DNA of 64,000 nucleotides from Lasiosphaeria ovina (taxonomy: Eukaryota > Ascomycota > Sordariomycetes > Sordariales > Lasiosphaeriaceae), in assembly GCA_033439765.1 (NCBI GenBank), contig JAULSN010000003.1, positions 2,604,001 through 2,668,000 on the forward strand, given 5' to 3'. A program made the translations under genes and the position numbers. Numbering within the stretch: the stretch's first letter is position 1; each line of letters begins with the position of its first letter. The notes beneath the pieces are model-generated. The model was not told where the DNA came from, searched no databases, and was given only the letters and a program-made list of their open reading frames with translations. Positions 19,587 to 43,448 of this stretch are shown here, in pieces.

Positions 19587-22500
19587 ATGCCGCTCAAAGC
19601 GCCCGCGCCTGCGCAATCGGCGGCCAGACGCGCAATCGAAAATGCGTTCAAGGATTTGGAGCGCACCATTTCCCCAGCCGATTCCCGTGATTTTGGCTCG
19701 ACCACACTCGACGATGTCAGAAAGGCGGCCATCGACATTGAGCGCCAGCTCGCGGCCCGGCAGTCCCTGCGCAACATGCGACGGCTGGAGCCTCTTTTCC
19801 AGGGCCTGGAACACTACGCCAAGATCATCGACGTCCTGTGCAACGGAACCGACTACATATCATGGATTTGGGCTCCAATTAAGCTCATCATGAAGGTAAA
19901 GTCCTGTTTGCTCAGCGAGGCCGAGCCATCAATGGGGTTTCCAGGTCATTTCAGGTCTTTTCTCTAATTGGGAGCTCGGCGCAGATCTCGAGCGACTACG
20001 TTGAAGCGTTTGAGCGAATCATCAAGGCTTATTCGCAGATTGCCGCTTCGCTTGGGAGGTTTCGGCTTCTGGAGCAGTCATTCAAGGGCAAGCCGCAGCT
20101 GTATCCAACCTTCGCCATCTTCTATGCCGACATCCTCCGCTTCCACAAGGCGGCGTACAAATTCGTCACACGTCGCTGTAAGATGGCACGCAATGAACAC
20201 CGCGGCAATTTTGGGCCATGAAACTGACTTTTGCAACTTTCAGGTTGGAAAATCATCTTCGTGACAGCGTGGGGTCGGTTTCAGCGCGAATTTGAAAACA
20301 TTCTTGAAGATCTCAAAAACCACGAGGATCTCATCGACAAAGAGGTCAACGCCCATAACATTGTTGAGGCTAGAGAGATGAGGGCTCACCTGGAGGCCTG
20401 GAGAATCGAGAGCTCTGAGAGGCTTGCCAGAGAAGAAAAAGAACGAACAGCGAGGCAGCTCCAGGATCTTACCAGCTGGCTGCGACTGGACGACTCGGAC
20501 CAAATCGTTCTTCTTGACTCGATCATAAAAGTGGGCACCAACTATCCAGGCACCGTAGACTGGATTGTCAAGAAACCACAAGTGGTTGCCTGGCTGCGGC
20601 CAACGTCCGAAGTTCCATTCCTGTGGCTCCAGGGGGGTCCCGGAACAGGCAAAAGTGTCATAATTGGGCGTCTTTTAGCCTTCCTCAAGGCCTCGAAATC
20701 CTCTTTGGTTCTCAGTCACGCCTGTTCGTACTCGTATAATTCTTCAACCATGTATGACCAGATCATCAAATCCCTGCTTCTTCAATGCACACGGGGTGAT
20801 GGTGACCTGGTGGCGCATATCTGGGAAGAGTACGTCGGAGGCAAGCAGCCCACTCTCCCGCTTCTTGAAAAGCTTCTCGAAACTGCCATCGAGATCATTT
20901 CCGGCAACAAGCAGGGCAACAACACTGTTCACATAATCCTTGACGGACTGGATGAATGCCCCAGCGACAAACAACGTCGTCTTATCCGACTGATGGAGAG
21001 GCTCGTCTCGGTGGGAAACACATGCAAGGTGCTCGTCTCCAGCAGGGACTCAACGGCCCTCCAGGGACGACTAAAGAGTAAATCCATTGTTTCTCTGTGG
21101 GAAGAGAAGGCGAGCCTTACAGAAGCAATTGCAAAATTTTCCGAACTTCGGCTCGGATTCATGGGCGACAAGTTGATGCAACTTGGAATTACAGAGGAGA
21201 CCAAGATGAAACTTGCCAAACGGATAGGAGACAAGTCAGACGGTGAGTCCCACATTCATTCCCAATGTAACCGTTCAACTAACGAACCTGGCCGACTTGC
21301 CGCATGTATGTTAGGAATGTTCCTCTGGGCATGCCTGGTCTTGAACTACTTGACGGCGAATTTTTTTTACAGCGGCGACGAATTCGTGGAGGCGGTGGAC
21401 GGCTTGCCCCCAGAGCTTTCGCAGTTGTCAGTCTATATTCTTAATAGTCCCTTGCAAGCAAGAGACATACTGACTTCCCCCAAGTTACGAGAAGATACTA
21501 TCACGTGTTTTATCCGACCTGGACTCTCGCTCAGCTGCCCGACTCAAGACGATATTTGGCTGGATAGCATTCTCCAAGCGTCCACTTCAGAAGTCGGAGC
21601 TGCAGTCTGCTCTCTTATTCCACGATGATGGGCCAGCGGGATCTCATCCGGTGCCAGCATATGTACTTGAGGCGTGCAAGCCCCTCGTGGAAGAGCGGCG
21701 AAATTCCACCCTTGTCTTCATCCACGTTTCAGTTAAAGAGTAAGCCCAAAATATCGCAAAACTCGTAACTGCCACTGACGCTCACTAGCTTCCTTTTGAG
21801 CGACGCCTGCAAAATCTCTGTTCGCATGGATGACTTCGCGGTGCGGTGGGAAAACGGTATCGCTTCATTGAGATGTCTCCGTGCCGCGCTCGACGTCTTC
21901 AACCCCCGCTCTAACAAGTACAACCGAGAGATTCAACTCATACGTGGAGTCTGGGGCTTCGTTGCTTATGCGTCCGAATTCTGGGACCTTCAACTGGTAG
22001 AAATGGTCACTCTTCCAGTAGTGAATTGGGATGCTCGATTCGGTGCGGTGGCTGCCGAGCTATCAGCTGCGTTGGCCACATCGCGACTGGGCCATGTCGA
22101 TACCCCCCACGGCCAAGTCATCGCGGAACTTAAGCCAATCCAATGCCTTCATAGTCTCTGGTACGACGCCACGATCAGCTTGCAAGATCGCTCCGAGGGA
22201 CGCGCGCGCCCACAAGATGTCCAAACAGGAGGTGAGCCCTACCGAATTTCTCCATGTTGCGCAAAGCACGTAGCTAATTGACAAGGTAGATGATATGAAG
22301 GAGCCCACGCACATTCGCCACATTTCCGAGAACTACGAGACAGCCGTACAACACTTAGTAAGCCTTGAAGACCACTACGAGGCCACTGCATCCGAGCTGG
22401 CGCTGTTCCGCGAGAATTTTGCCGGACACGCCTACCCCTGCCGCTTTGCCTCGTGTTCCCATGCTGCTACAGGATTCAAGACCAGTGAGGAGCGCAACGG

Positions 22501-26373: not shown

Positions 26374-27369
26374 TCAGAAGAATCCCCTCTCCGACCCGGG
26401 CGTCCGCTCATAGTACCATACGGCCTTAGCCGCCTTAGCGCAGCTACTCGTGCTTCCACCGTTGATATCAGCCCCAACCGGCTTGCCGCTGCCAGCCTGG
26501 ACCTGGCCATAGATATGGTAGTAGTACCAGATCTCCGTCAGCACCGTGCGCCCGTTGTCCAGCGACCCCTTGCCGGCGGCGGTGTCGTTGTACTTGGGGC
26601 CCGAGCAGCCGAGGTAGGGCGTGGCGCCGTGCCTGACCGCGAGCGTCGACTGGATGTCGGCGAGCGTGTAGCCGGTCGAGTTGCTCGGCTTGATGGCCCT
26701 GGCTGCGAGCCAGTCATACGTTGGCAGGCGCGCGAAGTACTCGGCGGCGACGGAGAAAAAGGTCAGCAGGTCCGTATGCGTGTCGAGGGCCTTGGCTGAG
26801 AAGCACGAGGGCGCGAAGGTGCTGTAGCACGTGGCGTGCTTGGAGAACTCGTGCGCCCAGAACTCGGTGTTGGGCTGGCCCTGCGCGATCCAGAACTTGT
26901 TCATCCACGCGAGCAGGGCGCGGCCGGGGAGGCCGAGGGCCGCCAGGAACGTGTCGACGGTCGGCCCGTGGTAGGCAGGCACGGGGGTTCCGGCGGGGGT
27001 GCCAGTTGTCGTGTTGGGCGACGGGTTGGGGTCGTACTGCCGGTTGAGGTCGCAGTATTGCGTCCACGAGCCGTTGCAGAAGTCGGGCCACAGCCCGTGC
27101 AGCGTGAACGAGTTCTTGGGCAGCTGTTGTCCGAGGCTTTCACGTCCCGTGTATGTGTCCCAGAACTGAGTCGATATCACGAGTCCGCCGAGCGTTTCGA
27201 CGCAGCACGAGTCAACCAGACCCGGTTGCGCCGCCGCGGAGCAAGACAGCTCCGGTTTGGAGAAGAGGCACTTGCTAGAACCGAAGACGTCCCCGATGCT
27301 GCTGGCTAGAACCGCTGGGATCGACAAGGAGCTGGCCACCGCCAGGCGGAGCAGATTGAGCCGGGCCAT
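26374..27369 (-). CDS. Secreted ribonuclease T2
   Basis: 331 residues in one exon. The ATG at 27367-27369 is chosen because it starts a clean signal peptide (MARLNLLRLAVASSLSIPAV). Both active-site segments of RNase T2 are present: CAS I FTLHGLWPDFC and CAS II EFWAHEFSKHATC, with the catalytic histidines and the Glu and Lys in place. Conserved cysteines (SSKCLF, CCVE, YCDLN, CYS, CFS) fit the usual disulfides. The enzyme cleaves RNA to 2',3'-cyclic phosphates in the secretory pathway or outside the cell. Length fits the fungal family. In-frame codons upstream of this ATG are unlikely to be translated. The CDS ends at 26374, and a 16-bp direct-repeat copy lies 54 bp beyond it. Confidence 0.92.
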   Translation of the reverse strand: MARLNLLRLAVASSLSIPAVLASSIGDVFGSSKCLFSKPELSCSAAAQPGLVDSCCVETLGGLVISTQFWDTYTGRESLGQQLPKNSFTLHGLWPDFCNGSWTQYCDLNRQYDPNPSPNTTTGTPAGTPVPAYHGPTVDTFLAALGLPGRALLAWMNKFWIAQGQPNTEFWAHEFSKHATCYSTFAPSCFSAKALDTHTDLLTFFSVAAEYFARLPTYDWLAARAIKPSNSTGYTLADIQSTLAVRHGATPYLGCSGPKYNDTAAGKGSLDNGRTVLTEIWYYYHIYGQVQAGSGKPVGADINGGSTSSCAKAAKAVWYYERTPGSERGFF

Positions 27370-27948
27370 TCTGTGCTGATTGAGGAGCAGAGGGCAGATA
27401 TCGAGGTGGCAAGTCTCATTTCGGTGAGGAGGACTGCATGCCTGATATAGTCGAAGACAGTGTGACACTAGCAATTGGCATGCACGTCATTGGCGGTTAT
27501 CCAACCATGGCTTCCTCCCGATTCACGTTCCGCGGTTCTGGCTCGCGGTTGCCTTCCCCGCACCCGCTGACACCGTCCTCTTTTGCTCCCACGTGGGGTT
27601 CTGTTATCGACAATTCGTCCAACTACGCAGGCGCATTTCGGGCGGTCGCTGCCCGATTAGGAAGTTGCAGAACACTCGGCGGCGAAACCTGCAAGAGCTA
27701 GTGAAGCCAGACTGCAAACTGATCCGATAGCTGGGGCTCTCCGCTTCCGAAAAAGGCAGGATGGGCCCGCGTGGGAAATCCACTGGCTGCTTTTTAGTCG
27801 AAGGACTTCACTCGCCGGCTCGATTGAAGTACGGTCGCTCCCGACATGGCGTTCGCCCGCGACCGATCAACCTGAGAAAAACACTATACTGGGGGATGGA
27901 GTTCATTAGCATGTTTTTGAACAACACCTTGCAACGAAATGTGAAGTT

Positions 27949-35942: not shown

Positions 35943-37499
35943 GATTCGAGTTGGTGGAGAGTTTAAGGTTCTGGGAATAATATTGGATGATGTTGATGAA
36001 GTGAAAATGCAGTGAGCAGCATGGCAGTCTTTCTCATGGCAAGTCATAGACTTATATACCGGGCTATCCGGGCTGTTGGCACCTCGTCAATTGCGGTCCG
36101 TCGTATCCAGCGAATCCGCTTCGCATAAGCTAAATAGGAAAATGCGAAGCGGATTCGGTTGGGTGGTCGAATCAACCCCTGGAATCATAGCATCAACAGG
36201 CCCAAGCCTCAATGCCAAAATCCTTTCGAACGCGTTCGACCGAAATCGGCCAACCCAGCCCATCGGGAAGCTGACTTCGCGGCCCGGCTCACGTAAGATT
36301 TGCGCTCAAAGGGGCTTCCAAAAAGACAGAAGCGTATTCACTGTCAACAATCCGCGGCCTTTACGCCTATTTGCGACTGCAGGGGTAGGTGCGGGATGTT
36401 GATCCAATCCCGACGGGAACCACCGGATTCCGGCGCCCCGCACTCCCCGGGCCATAGGCATTGACAATAGGCATTGGCAACAGGCATTGACACAGGCTTG
36501 GGATCTCAACGACCAAGTGGGTACGCCAAGCAGAGACGGATGAACAAGAGGTTTCTCTTTTCCCAGGAATACTGCACTCTGAAACTATGATTTCTTCCCA
36601 ACCTACTCATCACCACTCTCCTATCTCCGATCCTTTCTTACAAGAGTTGCCCGTAGTTTTGAGTGCCATCTCAACCACAAAGACTGAGGCAGTGTTGACA
36701 GTCGACGTTCTAGATAGAAATGCGTAATAAAGTGTTGTAGTATAAAAAGTGAGGTCTCATGTTATGGCCCAGTCTTATGTTACAATTTAATTTCTAATAA
36801 TAGACTAGAATCTGGTTTCACGTGTCCCGTAATGATGTTGCTCGAGACAACCACACTGGCGTACCAAAGGGTGCCTGATCAAGTACACCCTGATTATATC
36901 TCAAAAGTTCTAGCAAATGTAAACAGAAACCTGACGGGCGTGCGGCAAGAGAACCTGGTTTAGTCCAAGGCTGAGGTTGGTGATTAAACAGTGTGATTGA
37001 AACTACAAATTCGCCATACTTCTTCACCTTGAGTGTTCCACTGTCGTTCAAACACATCTGCTCTCCTAGACCAGGTTTCCTCCATTCTGAACAGCATCAC
37101 TTGTTTGCTTGGACCCTGTTTGCCAACTCACCACAGGTTATATAACTGCCGACCAGCCTTAGCTGCCGACCAGCCTCAACTGCCTGTGAAATTACAATGA
37201 TGCTGTTCAGTCATCTCAGTAGCCGAATCAACCAACTGTGTCTCCATTGTTGCCGCCGTTTCTTAATAGTCACGATGTTTTGTCTCGCTAGCTTTTTACT
37301 CTCGCCGTTACTCGCTTCTCTATTAAAAAGACCCTATCAGTAGACCTTCCCAGACTTTTGACGCAGGCCAAGTCCTTACGCACCCTCGACATACACACTT
37401 CTGCCCTGGGGCAACAGATTACCGGATACCTGCAATCTTTCTTTTCTGAGAATTGGCTTTTACAACGGCACCTAACTACTCCCAATCTGAATCCTCACC
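35943..37499. other. Intergenic region with divergent promoters
   Basis: About 1.55 kb between the SnoaL-like gene (-) and the SRPK-like kinase (+). Direct repeats of CTGCCGACCAGCCT occur at 37146-37159 and 37163-37176. The short frames present are not supported. Confidence 0.4.
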
Positions 37500-38849
37500 A
37501 TGGTTTCGTCCGGAATCCCAAACGTCGTTTTCTTGCCCCAGAGATATCGGCTCGCAAACAATGAGGTTCCCGAGAACGTCTCCGATTACACAAAGGGCGG
37601 ATTTCACCCTGTCCACATTGGCGACAGCATCGGACCGGATGGTCGATTCCGTATCATGAATAAGATGGGGTCAGGTGGCTCCGGCACTGTTTGGCTCTGC
37701 GAGGACACCCAGCACGAGATAGGAAAGCCGAAATGGAGGGCTGTCAAGATCTCAAAGGCAAGATGCGGCACGACCGGCGCTGTTGAGTTGAAGATAAAGA
37801 ACATTTTCACTAAGCACGGAGTCACCCCTTGGAGTGCCTTTCACAACGGAGTTGCCATCCCCATTGACAGCTTTACTATCAACGGACCAAACGGAACCCA
37901 CATGTGCTTGGTCCTCCCTGTGTTGGGACCAAAGATCCACCGCAATTTCGGATCATTCAATGACACCGAGCTGAAGCGGCGATCCGTTTGCCTTAATATT
38001 GCCCAGGCTATGAAATACATACACAGCCTAGGCATTTGCCACGGTGATTTCCGTCCAGCCAACATTCTCTTCCAGATGCCTGGACTCGAGCATTTTGATG
38101 AAACTGAGATCACTCAAGTCTTTGGTGGACTTCCTCGCGTCGTGAAGAATCTCCGCACGACGATGGAGCAGATGAGAACCAAGCCCGACTACCGGGTTAT
38201 TGATGCGAAGATCGACACCGTTGCCTTTCAGCAGCTTTTGAGTATGAAATACTCGGATGGGGTGTCATACGAACCGAAGATCGCTGTTGTTGACTTCGGC
38301 TCCGCATTCAAGCCGAGTGTGCAAACGAAGGAGAGGACTGCCATCACGCTCGCCTACATGGCACCGGAGTTCTTCTCAAAGGGCCCTGCCGGCATTACCA
38401 GTGATGTCTGGGCGCTGGGCTGCACAATCTCGGAGGTTATGCTCCACGTCTGCCATTTCCAAAACAGTTCGACGGCCGATGACCGCCTCCTGACAATGTT
38501 TGAGAACTGGGAGCATTTTTGCGGACCAATCCCGATGCACTACAGGCAGAGCATATCGCATGCGCTCTTGGCCGACAATGTCAACATCGAGGCTCGCTTC
38601 CCGTCCTTTGACAACCCCAACAAGCCTGCTTTGTCCGACTTGATGGCCGATGAGGAGCTGATCCACCCAAATAGTGCGGGCAGTGTGTGGGGATTTAATT
38701 CGTCCCAGCTCGAGAGAGCGATCGACAAGCTCGGCACTGACAACGCGAACCGGCTCATCGGCCTTCTTTGTGCCATCCTCAAGTGGAAGTCTAAGGAGCG
38801 ATTGTCGGTTGAGGAGATCATAAACCACCCCTTCTTTGGTCGGGACTGA
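37500..38849 (+). CDS. SRPK-like protein kinase with altered catalytic loop
   Basis: 449 residues, one exon. N-lobe: FRIMNKMGSGGSGTVWLCED (glycine loop about 57) and WRAVKIS (Lys about 80). Catalytic loop: ICHGDFRPANIL near 180; the Asp and Asn are kept, but HRDLK is HGDFR, so the usual Lys is Arg. DFG is intact (VVDFGSAF, about 262), followed by APEF and SDVWALG. A long insert separates catalytic loop and DFG, as in SRPK/Sky1-type kinases. The C-terminal subdomain ends in NHPFFGRD. SRPKs phosphorylate SR-rich proteins. The large, variable group of fungal SRPK-like kinases to which this belongs is mostly uncharacterised, so substrate is unknown. The HGDFRP loop occurs in that group and does not by itself imply inactivity. 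Confidence 0.9.
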   Translation: MVSSGIPNVVFLPQRYRLANNEVPENVSDYTKGGFHPVHIGDSIGPDGRFRIMNKMGSGGSGTVWLCEDTQHEIGKPKWRAVKISKARCGTTGAVELKIKNIFTKHGVTPWSAFHNGVAIPIDSFTINGPNGTHMCLVLPVLGPKIHRNFGSFNDTELKRRSVCLNIAQAMKYIHSLGICHGDFRPANILFQMPGLEHFDETEITQVFGGLPRVVKNLRTTMEQMRTKPDYRVIDAKIDTVAFQQLLSMKYSDGVSYEPKIAVVDFGSAFKPSVQTKERTAITLAYMAPEFFSKGPAGITSDVWALGCTISEVMLHVCHFQNSSTADDRLLTMFENWEHFCGPIPMHYRQSISHALLADNVNIEARFPSFDNPNKPALSDLMADEELIHPNSAGSVWGFNSSQLERAIDKLGTDNANRLIGLLCAILKWKSKERLSVEEIINHPFFGRD

Positions 38850-41373: not shown

Positions 41374-43448
41374 TCAATCCTCCTCCTTGGTCTCCCTCAG
41401 GGCTTTCAAAAACCCGGGCCTCCAGGACCGTCTCTTGCGTCTTTTATATCCCCGGGGTTCGAGGGCCGCAATGATTGCCTGTTGAGGTATTAACAGTTAG
41501 ATCCAGCCTCTCGTCATTTTATATATTCGCATCTTGATCTTACTTCGTCAAAGACCTCTTTCAGGCCCCGTTGCGTGAAGATGTTGCACTCGACGTACTT
41601 GGCCGCGCCAAGCTGGCTGGCCAGGATTTCGCCCATCCGCGTGTAATCCTCGCGCCTGGACGGATCTCCTGCTCTTTTGCGTTTCTCCAACAGCTCGTCG
41701 TCGTCGTGGCTCCCGATGCCGACGATCAGGAAGGGGACGCCTGGGCAGTGGTGCATGATCTCGGGCACCCACTTCTCTCGGACGTCCTCGTAGCTAATGT
41801 GGTTGCCGATACGCGCGAAGACCAAGAAGACGTCAGTCTGCGGGTATGAAAGTGGTCGGAGGCGATCGTAGTCCTCCTGCCCGCTGCTGTCGAAGAGCCC
41901 GAGGGTCCAGGGCTCGTCGCCGATCCTAGATCGATGAGTTAGTTGCGGATAATGTAGAGTCAGGCGTCCAGTTGACTTCAAACTGCCAGGGGCATTCACT
42001 CACATCACTGTGACCGCGTAATTATCGAACACGGTGGGCACGAATTCTTCGGGGAACTTGTTGGTTGTGTATGCCATGAGCGTCTCTGTCTTTAGGGTGC
42101 TTCCAGAACCAACAACCATGACCCTGTGGTTGGAGCGTCAGTATATGGTATTGCGCCTTGACAGGGAATTAACCTTTGCTCACTTGATAGTTGCGCCCAA
42201 TGTGACAGGGTGCCTATTGACGGGCGCTGATACCTCCGGAGTATTGGTCAGAGGTGCACTAGAACCCGACCCTCCAGAGTCGACAGGCGTTAAACGATCC
42301 GGTGGAACCTCAAGGCCGTCTGGAGCCTGGATACCTTTCCCTGAACCATGACGTGGACTTGCTGGCGAGGGGGCCCCTGCTTGACTCGGCCGGCTCCAAT
42401 TGCCCTGCGACGAGCTGGGTTCTGCAATGACTGGCACCTGTCCCCGGATAAGAGACGCAAACGTAAGGTCGAGACCAAAACTCTTGATGTCGTCGAGAGT
42501 GACGGGAAGTCGAAAGACCGAAACGACGGATATGTCATTCAACGACAACATGGTCCAGGCGTGTGACCGGGCCGTTGAGCTGGAAAGCGACATATCCGAG
42601 TCGTTCAATACCGTCCGGGAGTAGACCCTCGACTGCTCAAGAACAATCTCAAATTCGCGACTTGTCAAGCCCGACGCATCTGATGTGAAAGACGACCCTG
42701 ATGTGAAAGACGACCCAGTGTTGTCCGACGAACTCGAGTCCGAGGGGCCATCGGGTGGCGGCGCCACCATGACGGACAGCCTGCGCGGGTCGACAATGGA
42801 ATCGTTATCGTAGAACCTGACTGAGCTGTTATCCCCCAACTGCATCTCGTCCAGGTTCCGCACCCGTGCAGCAAACTCTTCATCTCGCTGCAGAATCTGC
42901 TCGACGGCCGCGTTCAGTCTGTCGCGACTCGCCAGGGCCTCCATCTCCGATTGACTAGAAAAAGGAATGGATTTTTGTCAGCGCAGACCTCGCGCTGGGT
43001 AATTAGACACAAAGCCCGGGCAAAGTACGCACCACATGAGCACCGTCACCATCAGGGACAGCGACGCCTTTTGCGAATCCAGCCGCGGAAGCAGGCGCAA
43101 CACTTTTTTCTCGCCCCAGGCCCATCGCATGCGGTGCAGGACGCCGTCCTTGAAGCACACCAGCGACTCGAGCTCGGACAGCGTGAGAACGCAGTTGGAG
43201 AAGGTGATGGCGATGTGGTTCAGCCGCACCAGCAGCCGGCGGTTGCTGGGGAGGTTCGTCACCGTGTCGACGAGCCCCTTGACCATGTCGAGGGCGAGCC
43301 TGACGTCCTCGACGGCGGCCAGCGTGTCCCGCGCCGACTGCGGCGCGTCCATGGCGCTCGACACAAAGGCCGACAGCGCCAGGCATATCTTGCCCGCCGT
43401 CGCTACGAGGCCCACGACGGCCGTCGCGATGCTGAGCGGGTCCGACAT
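41374..43448 (-). CDS. Helo-like N-terminal domain fused to degenerate Rho/Cdc42-type GTPase
   Basis: Five exons: 43448-43033, 42954-42184, 42123-42004, 41925-41544, 41478-41374. All phases agree, giving 597 residues. Residues 1-140 ([20 protein letters not shown] onward) match the fungal Helo-like N-terminal domain found at the front of NLRs and other cell-death proteins. About 250 residues of Ser/Pro-rich linker follow. From 396 the protein is a Rho-family GTPase: [20 protein letters not shown], then [20 protein letters not shown] and [14 protein letters not shown] match Cdc42/Rac. The P-loop is GSGSTLKT (401-408) with Leu for the invariant second Gly, DTAGQ is DSSGQ, and the TQxD guanine motif is replaced by GIGSHDD. 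The C-terminus is basic ([11 protein letters not shown]) without a CAAX box. Nucleotide binding is probably altered or lost. A scaffold or sensor role in cell-death signalling is inference. Confidence 0.87.

Follow-up and report, generated by a model that had tools for sequence, protein, structure and literature searches.

A HeLo-like protein with a degenerate Cdc42-derived module in Lasiosphaeria ovina and its candidate family of ascomycete relatives

What might a protein do that joins a domain of the fungal cell-death type to a small GTPase whose nucleotide-binding motifs are broken? The question is raised by a minus-strand gene, at 43448-41374, in a 64,000-nucleotide stretch of the Lasiosphaeria ovina genome (contig JAULSN010000003.1, positions 2,604,001 to 2,668,000; hereafter, the window). 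A preliminary description of the locus proposed a HeLo-like domain fused to a degenerate Rho/Cdc42-type GTPase that serves as a decoy. Judged from sequence, the N-terminal domain of the 597-residue product belongs to the HeLo-like family, and its C-terminal module is a pseudo-GTPase of Cdc42 descent from which G1 (Gly15), G4, G5, and the CAAX box are gone and which keeps the switch I/II face in the window's own clade. The gene is assigned on the same grounds to one family in which a common HeLo-like platform carries a Cdc42-derived, Ras, RhoGAP, Cdc24-like guanine nucleotide exchange factor (GEF), CRIB, ubiquitin-conjugating (E2), or ubiquitin module. We propose that the protein may be a HeLo-like signaling or cell-death front end, outside the NOD-like receptors (NLRs), with an integrated bait for Cdc42/Ras/ubiquitin machinery, here monitoring Cdc42 GEFs or switch-face binders, a reading whose chances we hold to be evenly balanced.

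The five phase-consistent exons described earlier hold up when rebuilt and re-derived, giving an intact 597-residue open reading frame; the strand had not been given before. All four introns run from GT to AG and measure 78, 60, 78, and 65 nt in order. The exons are:

43033..43448, minus strand: exon 1, with the start codon and, over residues 1-138, the four-helix HeLo-like domain (gene model, structure model, profile comparison)
42184..42954, minus strand: exon 2, more helical sequence, the linker, the conserved motif, and ATIK, which immediately precedes the GTPase (gene model; model of relative P0001)
42004..42123, minus strand: exon 3, bearing the P-loop and switch I of the module derived from Cdc42 (gene model, alignment)
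41544..41925, minus strand: exon 4, from the Met/Ile following strand 2 through FDE of helix 5 (gene model)
41374..41478, minus strand: exon 5, remainder of helix 5, polybasic tail, and stop, without CAAX (gene model)

The protein begins MSDPLSI, matching the MADPLSI or MSDPLSI starts of its relatives. The stretch assigned to a Ras/Rho-type module (residues 396-597) matches Pfam Ras over residues 396-565 (E=7e-27), and a full-length relative from Apodospora peruviana is 76% identical over 100% of the query; the reading frame is therefore not a chance one. Scanned whole against Pfam at E 0.1, the protein matches Ras and Roc only, with neither NACHT nor NB-ARC, and no repeats were found in it. 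That this is one gene and not two, as first described, is borne out by a search with residues 1-330, which returned at least 35 proteins, 30 of them also bearing a Ras-family domain. Single-protein relatives of full or near-full length occur in Apodospora, Naviculisporaceae, Cladorrhinum, Podospora aff. communis, several Fusarium, Clonostachys, and others, at 76% to 34% identity. A two-gene artefact and a pseudogene were both ruled out by the conserved fusion and the introns in common with Cdc42, as was a splice alternative that would bring back Gly15, since the P-loop lies within one exon and relatives have the same loss.

The Leu in place of Gly15, the DSSGQ motif, the lost guanine-specificity motif, and the missing CAAX box all recur on re-derivation. 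The altered and retained sites, for which the window residue is the Cdc42 number plus 391 up to G4, are:

42087..42110, minus strand: degenerate P-loop GSGSTLKT, residues 401-408 (gene model, alignment)
42093-42095, minus strand: codon of Leu406, in place of Cdc42 Gly15 (gene model, alignment)
42018..42056, minus strand: switch I equivalent (Cdc42 28-40), sequence retained, Y32 changed to Phe (alignment)
41838..41891, minus strand: G3 and switch II equivalent (Cdc42 57-74) (alignment)
41706..41717, minus strand: lost guanine-specificity site, TQVD to IGSH, residues 506-509 (alignment)
41577..41585, minus strand: lost G5 site, SAL to NIF, residues 550-552 (alignment)
41377..41445, minus strand: tail replacing CAAX (pattern scan)

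DTAGQ has thus become DSSGQ at G3 and ECSAL has become ECNIF at G5, the C-terminus reads ETKEED, and T35, N39, and Q61 are kept. Motif tables and pattern counts extend the G1, G4, G5, and CAAX defects across the family, in keeping with the pseudo-GTPase first suggested. In an alignment of the window protein with 34 relatives, Gly15 survives in just one row of 35 (P0136, from Hypomontagnella monticulosa), or one of 21 after thinning at 85% identity, ahead of which P0141 was excluded as short. Elsewhere the position holds M, L, E, A, V, Q, K, C, or F, or there is no readable loop (P0006, P0135, P0140; P0002 has a two-residue gap). The P-loop Lys (32/35), Asp57 (30/35), and Gly60 (31/35) are largely kept. 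Among 37 Rho-type fusions scanned for patterns, a strict GxxxxGK[ST] P-loop occurs once, the SA motif and a C-x-x-x end never, and TQxD once, in P0005, where the match is TQQDL at the G5 end and not G4; the tail pattern [RK][RK]x[WL][RN][PA]xFL is found in the window protein and nine of the 37 relatives. P0136, with GDACTGKTS, is the sole Rho-type fusion seen with an intact P-loop, and could represent the state before Gly15 was lost or a reversal.

The damage is unevenly spread. Over position sets that we take to be the nucleotide contacts and the switch surface, the window clade (nine rows, chosen after inspection of the motif table) is 31% identical to Cdc42 at the contacts and 86% at the switch surface, with position-permutation values of 0.003 for the low contacts and 0.00025 for the high switch surface; six canonical Rho/Rac/Cdc42 rows give 89% and 97%. 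With P0011 and P0121 included in the clade the values drop, for switch I to 73% (81% without them) and for switch II to 77% (83% without them). A second clade of seven rows is further degraded (contacts 14%, switch surface 60%, switch I 34%), and most rows beyond the window's clade are without T35. As a control, the strict P-loop is present in 85 of 105 non-platform homologues and missing in 20, several of which seem truncated; this control is biased because the list is ranked by likeness to a degenerate query. Gly15 is also replaced, by E, D, or K, in the non-platform proteins P0047, P0061, P0043, P0010, P0020, and P0021, whose sources include Rhizophagus irregularis, a kinase-Cdc42 fusion, Anaeramoeba, and the fish Siganus; replacement in such Cdc42/Rho-like modules is possibly convergent.

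The module had been called Cdc42/Rac-like; the Cdc42 half of that label stands and the Rac half does not. In a 37-row tree, the 21 fused modules form one clade (100/99) that joins seven fungal Cdc42 rows (97/84) within a Cdc42 group (99/96); Rac and Rho stand elsewhere in the tree, which rules out a Rac or Rho1 origin. Branching order within the fused clade is unsure because some fused rows are long branches; P0136, for instance, groups with P0017 (88/78), and the tree program warns of two long branches there. The introns tell the same lineage. The intact Cdc42 of this genome (L031, C12:5562300-5564200) has two phase 2 introns, one in the GTIK Lys codon and one in the VTVM Met codon, and a third intron, of phase 0, that follows FDE; all three introns of the module match these in position and phase:

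42124..42183, minus strand: intron 2, phase 2, Lys of ATIK, place and phase of Cdc42 intron 1 (gene comparison)
41926..42003, minus strand: intron 3, phase 2, Met of VTVM, as Cdc42 intron 2 (gene comparison)
41479..41543, minus strand: intron 4, phase 0, after FDE, as Cdc42 intron 3 (gene comparison)

A duplicated Cdc42 was thus fused, with its own introns, to the HeLo-like front end. Because Cdc42 leader residues are kept at the module start (ATIK; VVATIK in P0014), the join suggests capture of the whole Cdc42 coding region.

For the front end, the profile check proposed for residues 1-140 divides. Against PF17111 (now PigL_N) the window domain scores 15.8 bits, below the Pfam curated cut-off of 27.2, so direct assignment fails; homology to domains above the cut-off holds. 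At E 0.1, six of 16 members of a relative set (A1) match PF17111, with a best E of 0.0023, and the Rho-type fusion P0136 scores 25.7. Profile-profile comparison by hhalign with ten PF17111-bearing sisters, seven of them above the cut-off when scored and three carrying a precomputed PF17111 annotation, gives 99.96% (E 9.6e-39, 144 columns), and a column-shuffled control gives 0.11%. An AlphaFold model of exon 1 (pLDDT, the model's own confidence score, 86.5) has four long helices (4-31, 37-64, 77-97, 105-137), with weak structural matches to MLKL and the NRG1 CC-R domain; the MLKL, HET-S, and RPW8 families give no Pfam match at E 1. The HeLo-like assignment made at first sight is upheld by the sister homology and the four-helix model together.

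The same fusion occurs in many other ascomycetes, as one fused-module clade, and the platform is not confined to Cdc42. Each protein search scored about 8000 candidates with lengths between 0.55 and 1.75 that of the query, and the partner survey is a lower bound; the orders and classes of the fungi are those we presume from their names. Queried with the N-terminal part of this genome's Ras fusion, the search found at least 54 proteins: 29 with a Ras-family partner, eight with RhoGAP, one with CDC24, RhoGEF, and PH, one with PBD/CRIB, and one with ubiquitin; for the remaining 14, no partner or PF17111 alone is listed, among them P0171, which has a weak ubiquitin match. A 42-row platform tree places the five GAP rows in one clade and the two GEF rows, one from this genome and one from Fusarium, in another (each 100/100), and puts every Ras row but P0156 together with a single row that lacks a partner (100/99). 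Three changes are needed for the 17 Rho rows, because interspersed with them are the partner-less P0147 and P0158 and P0150, which is very degenerate. Within what had been called a disordered linker lies a conserved stretch:

42456..42665, minus strand: platform motif, about residues 236-305 (alignment with other fusions)

Aligned in 20 sequences, the motif is common to the Rho, Ras, GAP, GEF, CRIB, and ubiquitin fusions and has no Pfam match at E 0.1. It corrects the description as a disordered linker, although the region is modeled at low confidence in P0001.

An exon-by-exon search of this genome, whose gene counts are lower bounds, found at least five platform genes: two pseudo-Cdc42 fusions, including the window gene, one Ras, one Cdc24-like, and one E2, the last two known from partial gene models. 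The four outside the window are:

C12:7068975-7070660: second pseudo-Cdc42 fusion, P-loop GDSSSCKT (exon-wise search, alignment)
C4:649737-651565: Ras fusion, intact P-loop GDESVGKT (exon-wise search, alignment)
C27:568285 onward: Cdc24-like fusion, RhoGEF 26.2 against 27.6 bits (just below cut-off), platform in the GEF clade
C1:2240575 onward: E2 fusion (L033; C1:2240000-2242800), UQ_con 3.3e-18, motif as in the window gene

By their residues, several of these partner domains, and not all, are predicted to be inactivated. At the arginine-finger position the RhoGAP fusions have Ala (seven of eight) or Ser (P0169, with an Arg adjoining), so the finger is missing in all eight; P0164 and P0162 were aligned to solved GAPs and the other six read by eye. 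A canonical GAP of the same genome (L039) reads EGIFRLSG there. In the E2 fusion an Arg aligns at the catalytic-Cys position, where a wild-type E2 presumably reads GSIC and the best-matching solved chain is GSIK. The Cdc24-like P0161 has Gln at the Glu of DTERKYV in this genome's Cdc24, and the genome's own GEF fusion retains the Glu; the CRIB fusion retains ISPP..H..HV, and the Ras-type L030 and P0142 retain intact P-loops. A finger-less RhoGAP domain can still bind, since the structure entry 5m6x gives a solved complex of RhoA with an arginine-finger-mutated RhoGAP (R85A).

Two further arrangements were seen in this genome. At L032 (C30:996300-998000), a HeLo-like start (55 residues, PF17111 E 0.12) is separately joined to a Cdc42 copy that keeps AVGKT and the last two Cdc42 introns. 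The reading frame changes where the two parts meet, DTAGQ has become DTANQ, and a TGA stands in frame. At L064 (C1:59500-62500), a RhoGAP-like open reading frame with HVFGQDA at the arginine-finger site has upstream of it a different N-domain that is positive for PF17111 (36 bits); L065 and L066 hold similar finger-less RhoGAP-like frames. Elsewhere in the window are open reading frames for a HET domain (399-2291, minus), NACHT/NPHP3_N (20228-21628, plus), RNase T2 (26374-27486, minus), and a protein kinase (37491-38849, plus).

How would such a protein work? Cdc42 G15A, Rac1 G15A, and RhoA G17A serve as nucleotide-free baits (PMC12644026), and in RHOA G17V, according to parts of PMC6678807, GTP binding is impaired and GEFs are sequestered or altered. 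Replacement of Gly15 would likewise leave the module without nucleotide and in a GEF-binding form, which would make Cdc42 GEFs the likeliest partner; together with the kept switch face, it leads us to infer a GEF- or switch-face-binding bait. The module would monitor Cdc42 GEFs (Cdc24), or any binder or modifier of the Cdc42 switch face, and an altered contact would lead to clustering or release of the HeLo-like domain at the membrane. The loss of Gly15 points to a GEF trap at least as much as to an effector bait. The preliminary interpretation is partly supported, decoy function being its inferential part, and it is strengthened by the sister genes, absent from that description, that join the same platform to a RhoGAP or E2 lacking its catalytic residue or to a Cdc24-like GEF, CRIB, or ubiquitin; its phrase 'NLR-like logic without NACHT or NB-ARC' would be fair as an analogy. 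More tentatively, these proteins may constitute an undescribed class of non-NLR death-domain receptors in filamentous ascomycetes, with copies of Cdc42, Ras, Cdc24 GEF, RhoGAP, CRIB, E2, and ubiquitin grafted onto a HeLo-like platform, several frozen at the positions altered in laboratory trapping mutants (Cdc42 Gly15, the RhoGAP arginine finger, and the E2 Cys), so that the pathway would be watched at several steps.

The main rival, which we think unlikely, is polarity housekeeping: the platform would be a membrane or oligomerization anchor, and the dead Cdc42, GAP, GEF, and CRIB modules would dampen or scaffold Cdc42 signaling, with no role in immunity or death. Such a role agrees with the Ras/Rho-pathway domains of 39 of the 40 partnered proteins in the 54-protein search, with the stability of GAP and GEF types on the platform tree, and with parts of two papers in which loss of RHOA Gly17 is dominant-negative (PMC6678807) and the pseudoGTPase domains of p190RhoGAP are regulatory (PMC5593906). 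It sits poorly with fused modules on branches much longer than those of Cdc42, with the HeLo-like domain acting elsewhere as an incompatibility or NLR effector, and with E2 and ubiquitin fusions, which fall outside polarity. The strict effector or toxin bait of the preliminary description, in which foreign effectors would modify the decoy's Rho switch face and so free the HeLo-like domain, seems to us improbable. Rho GTPases are well-known effector targets, and the switch face is largely retained in the window's clade, with T35, N39, and Q61 in the window protein; yet the window protein has Y32F, T35 is lost in most rows beyond its clade, and a nucleotide-free module is not the form preferred by most modifiers. 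In its favor, integrated decoys have been proposed for Sordariales NLRs (PMC12258605, in part).

An atypical but working switch appears more improbable still; such a module, a class ii or iii pseudoGTPase, would go on binding nucleotide through altered motifs and, as a G protein that is slow or constitutive, would gate the HeLo-like domain. The conserved P-loop Lys, Asp57, and Gly60, the full P-loop of P0136, and the intact P-loops of the Ras-type fusions would allow it, but G1, G4, and G5 are all degraded, and the presumed nucleotide contacts are poorly conserved. Scarcely credible is a relic or a chimera of annotation, with read-through from a HeLo-like gene into a decaying duplicate of Cdc42: the broken L032 join offers a precedent in the same genome, but the idea is largely contradicted by the open frame, the splice sites shared with Cdc42, the close relative in another genus, and the single clade across many ascomycetes.

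If the bait reading is true, fungi would have a guard-and-decoy layer beyond NLRs, directed at the polarity switch Cdc42, which governs growth and cell fusion, where self and non-self are decided. The platform would also give the G15A GEF trap of the laboratory, and RhoGAPs with a dead arginine finger, their equivalent in nature, and would supply a short list of testable genes, five of them found in this genome, with a family-defining motif. In the open-licence literature we found no description of HeLo-like proteins with a small GTPase or with inactivated Rho-pathway enzymes, and the absence of the latter counts under the polarity-scaffold reading too; an earlier description elsewhere is possible. 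The fusions to finger-less RhoGAP, Cdc24-like GEF, CRIB, Ras, and ubiquitin are new here.

Among known systems, MLKL, HET-S, and RPW8 resemble the window domain in modeled four-helix architecture, with weak structural matches to MLKL and NRG1 CC-R; the Pfam comparison does not join it to those families. The HeLo-like (PF17111) domains of fungal NLRs and stand-alone effectors share its family and four-helix model; unlike them, the window protein continues into a conserved motif and a signaling-protein module in place of NACHT, NB-ARC, or repeats. Compared with class i pseudoGTPases (p190RhoGAP pG1/pG2 and CENP-M, as given in parts of PMC5593906), the window module, known here from sequence, is still clearly Cdc42, keeps its switch face in one clade, and is fused to a HeLo-like domain. 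Integrated decoys, in plant NLRs and in the CHK-2-like kinase domains of Sordariales NLRs treated in PMC12258605 (whose main text has no whole-word 'Ras' or 'Rho'), likewise set a duplicated housekeeping signaling domain, its modules forming one clade, on a death- or immune-type front end; the platform proteins differ in being non-NLR, in their inactivated bait, and in carrying several parts of one pathway on the same platform, and their receptor role is putative. Finally, Cdc42 G15A, RhoA G17A, and the lymphoma mutant RHOA G17V have the same P-loop glycine replaced, but on the platform the replacement is natural and inherited, and its residue varies (L, M, E, K, C, and others).
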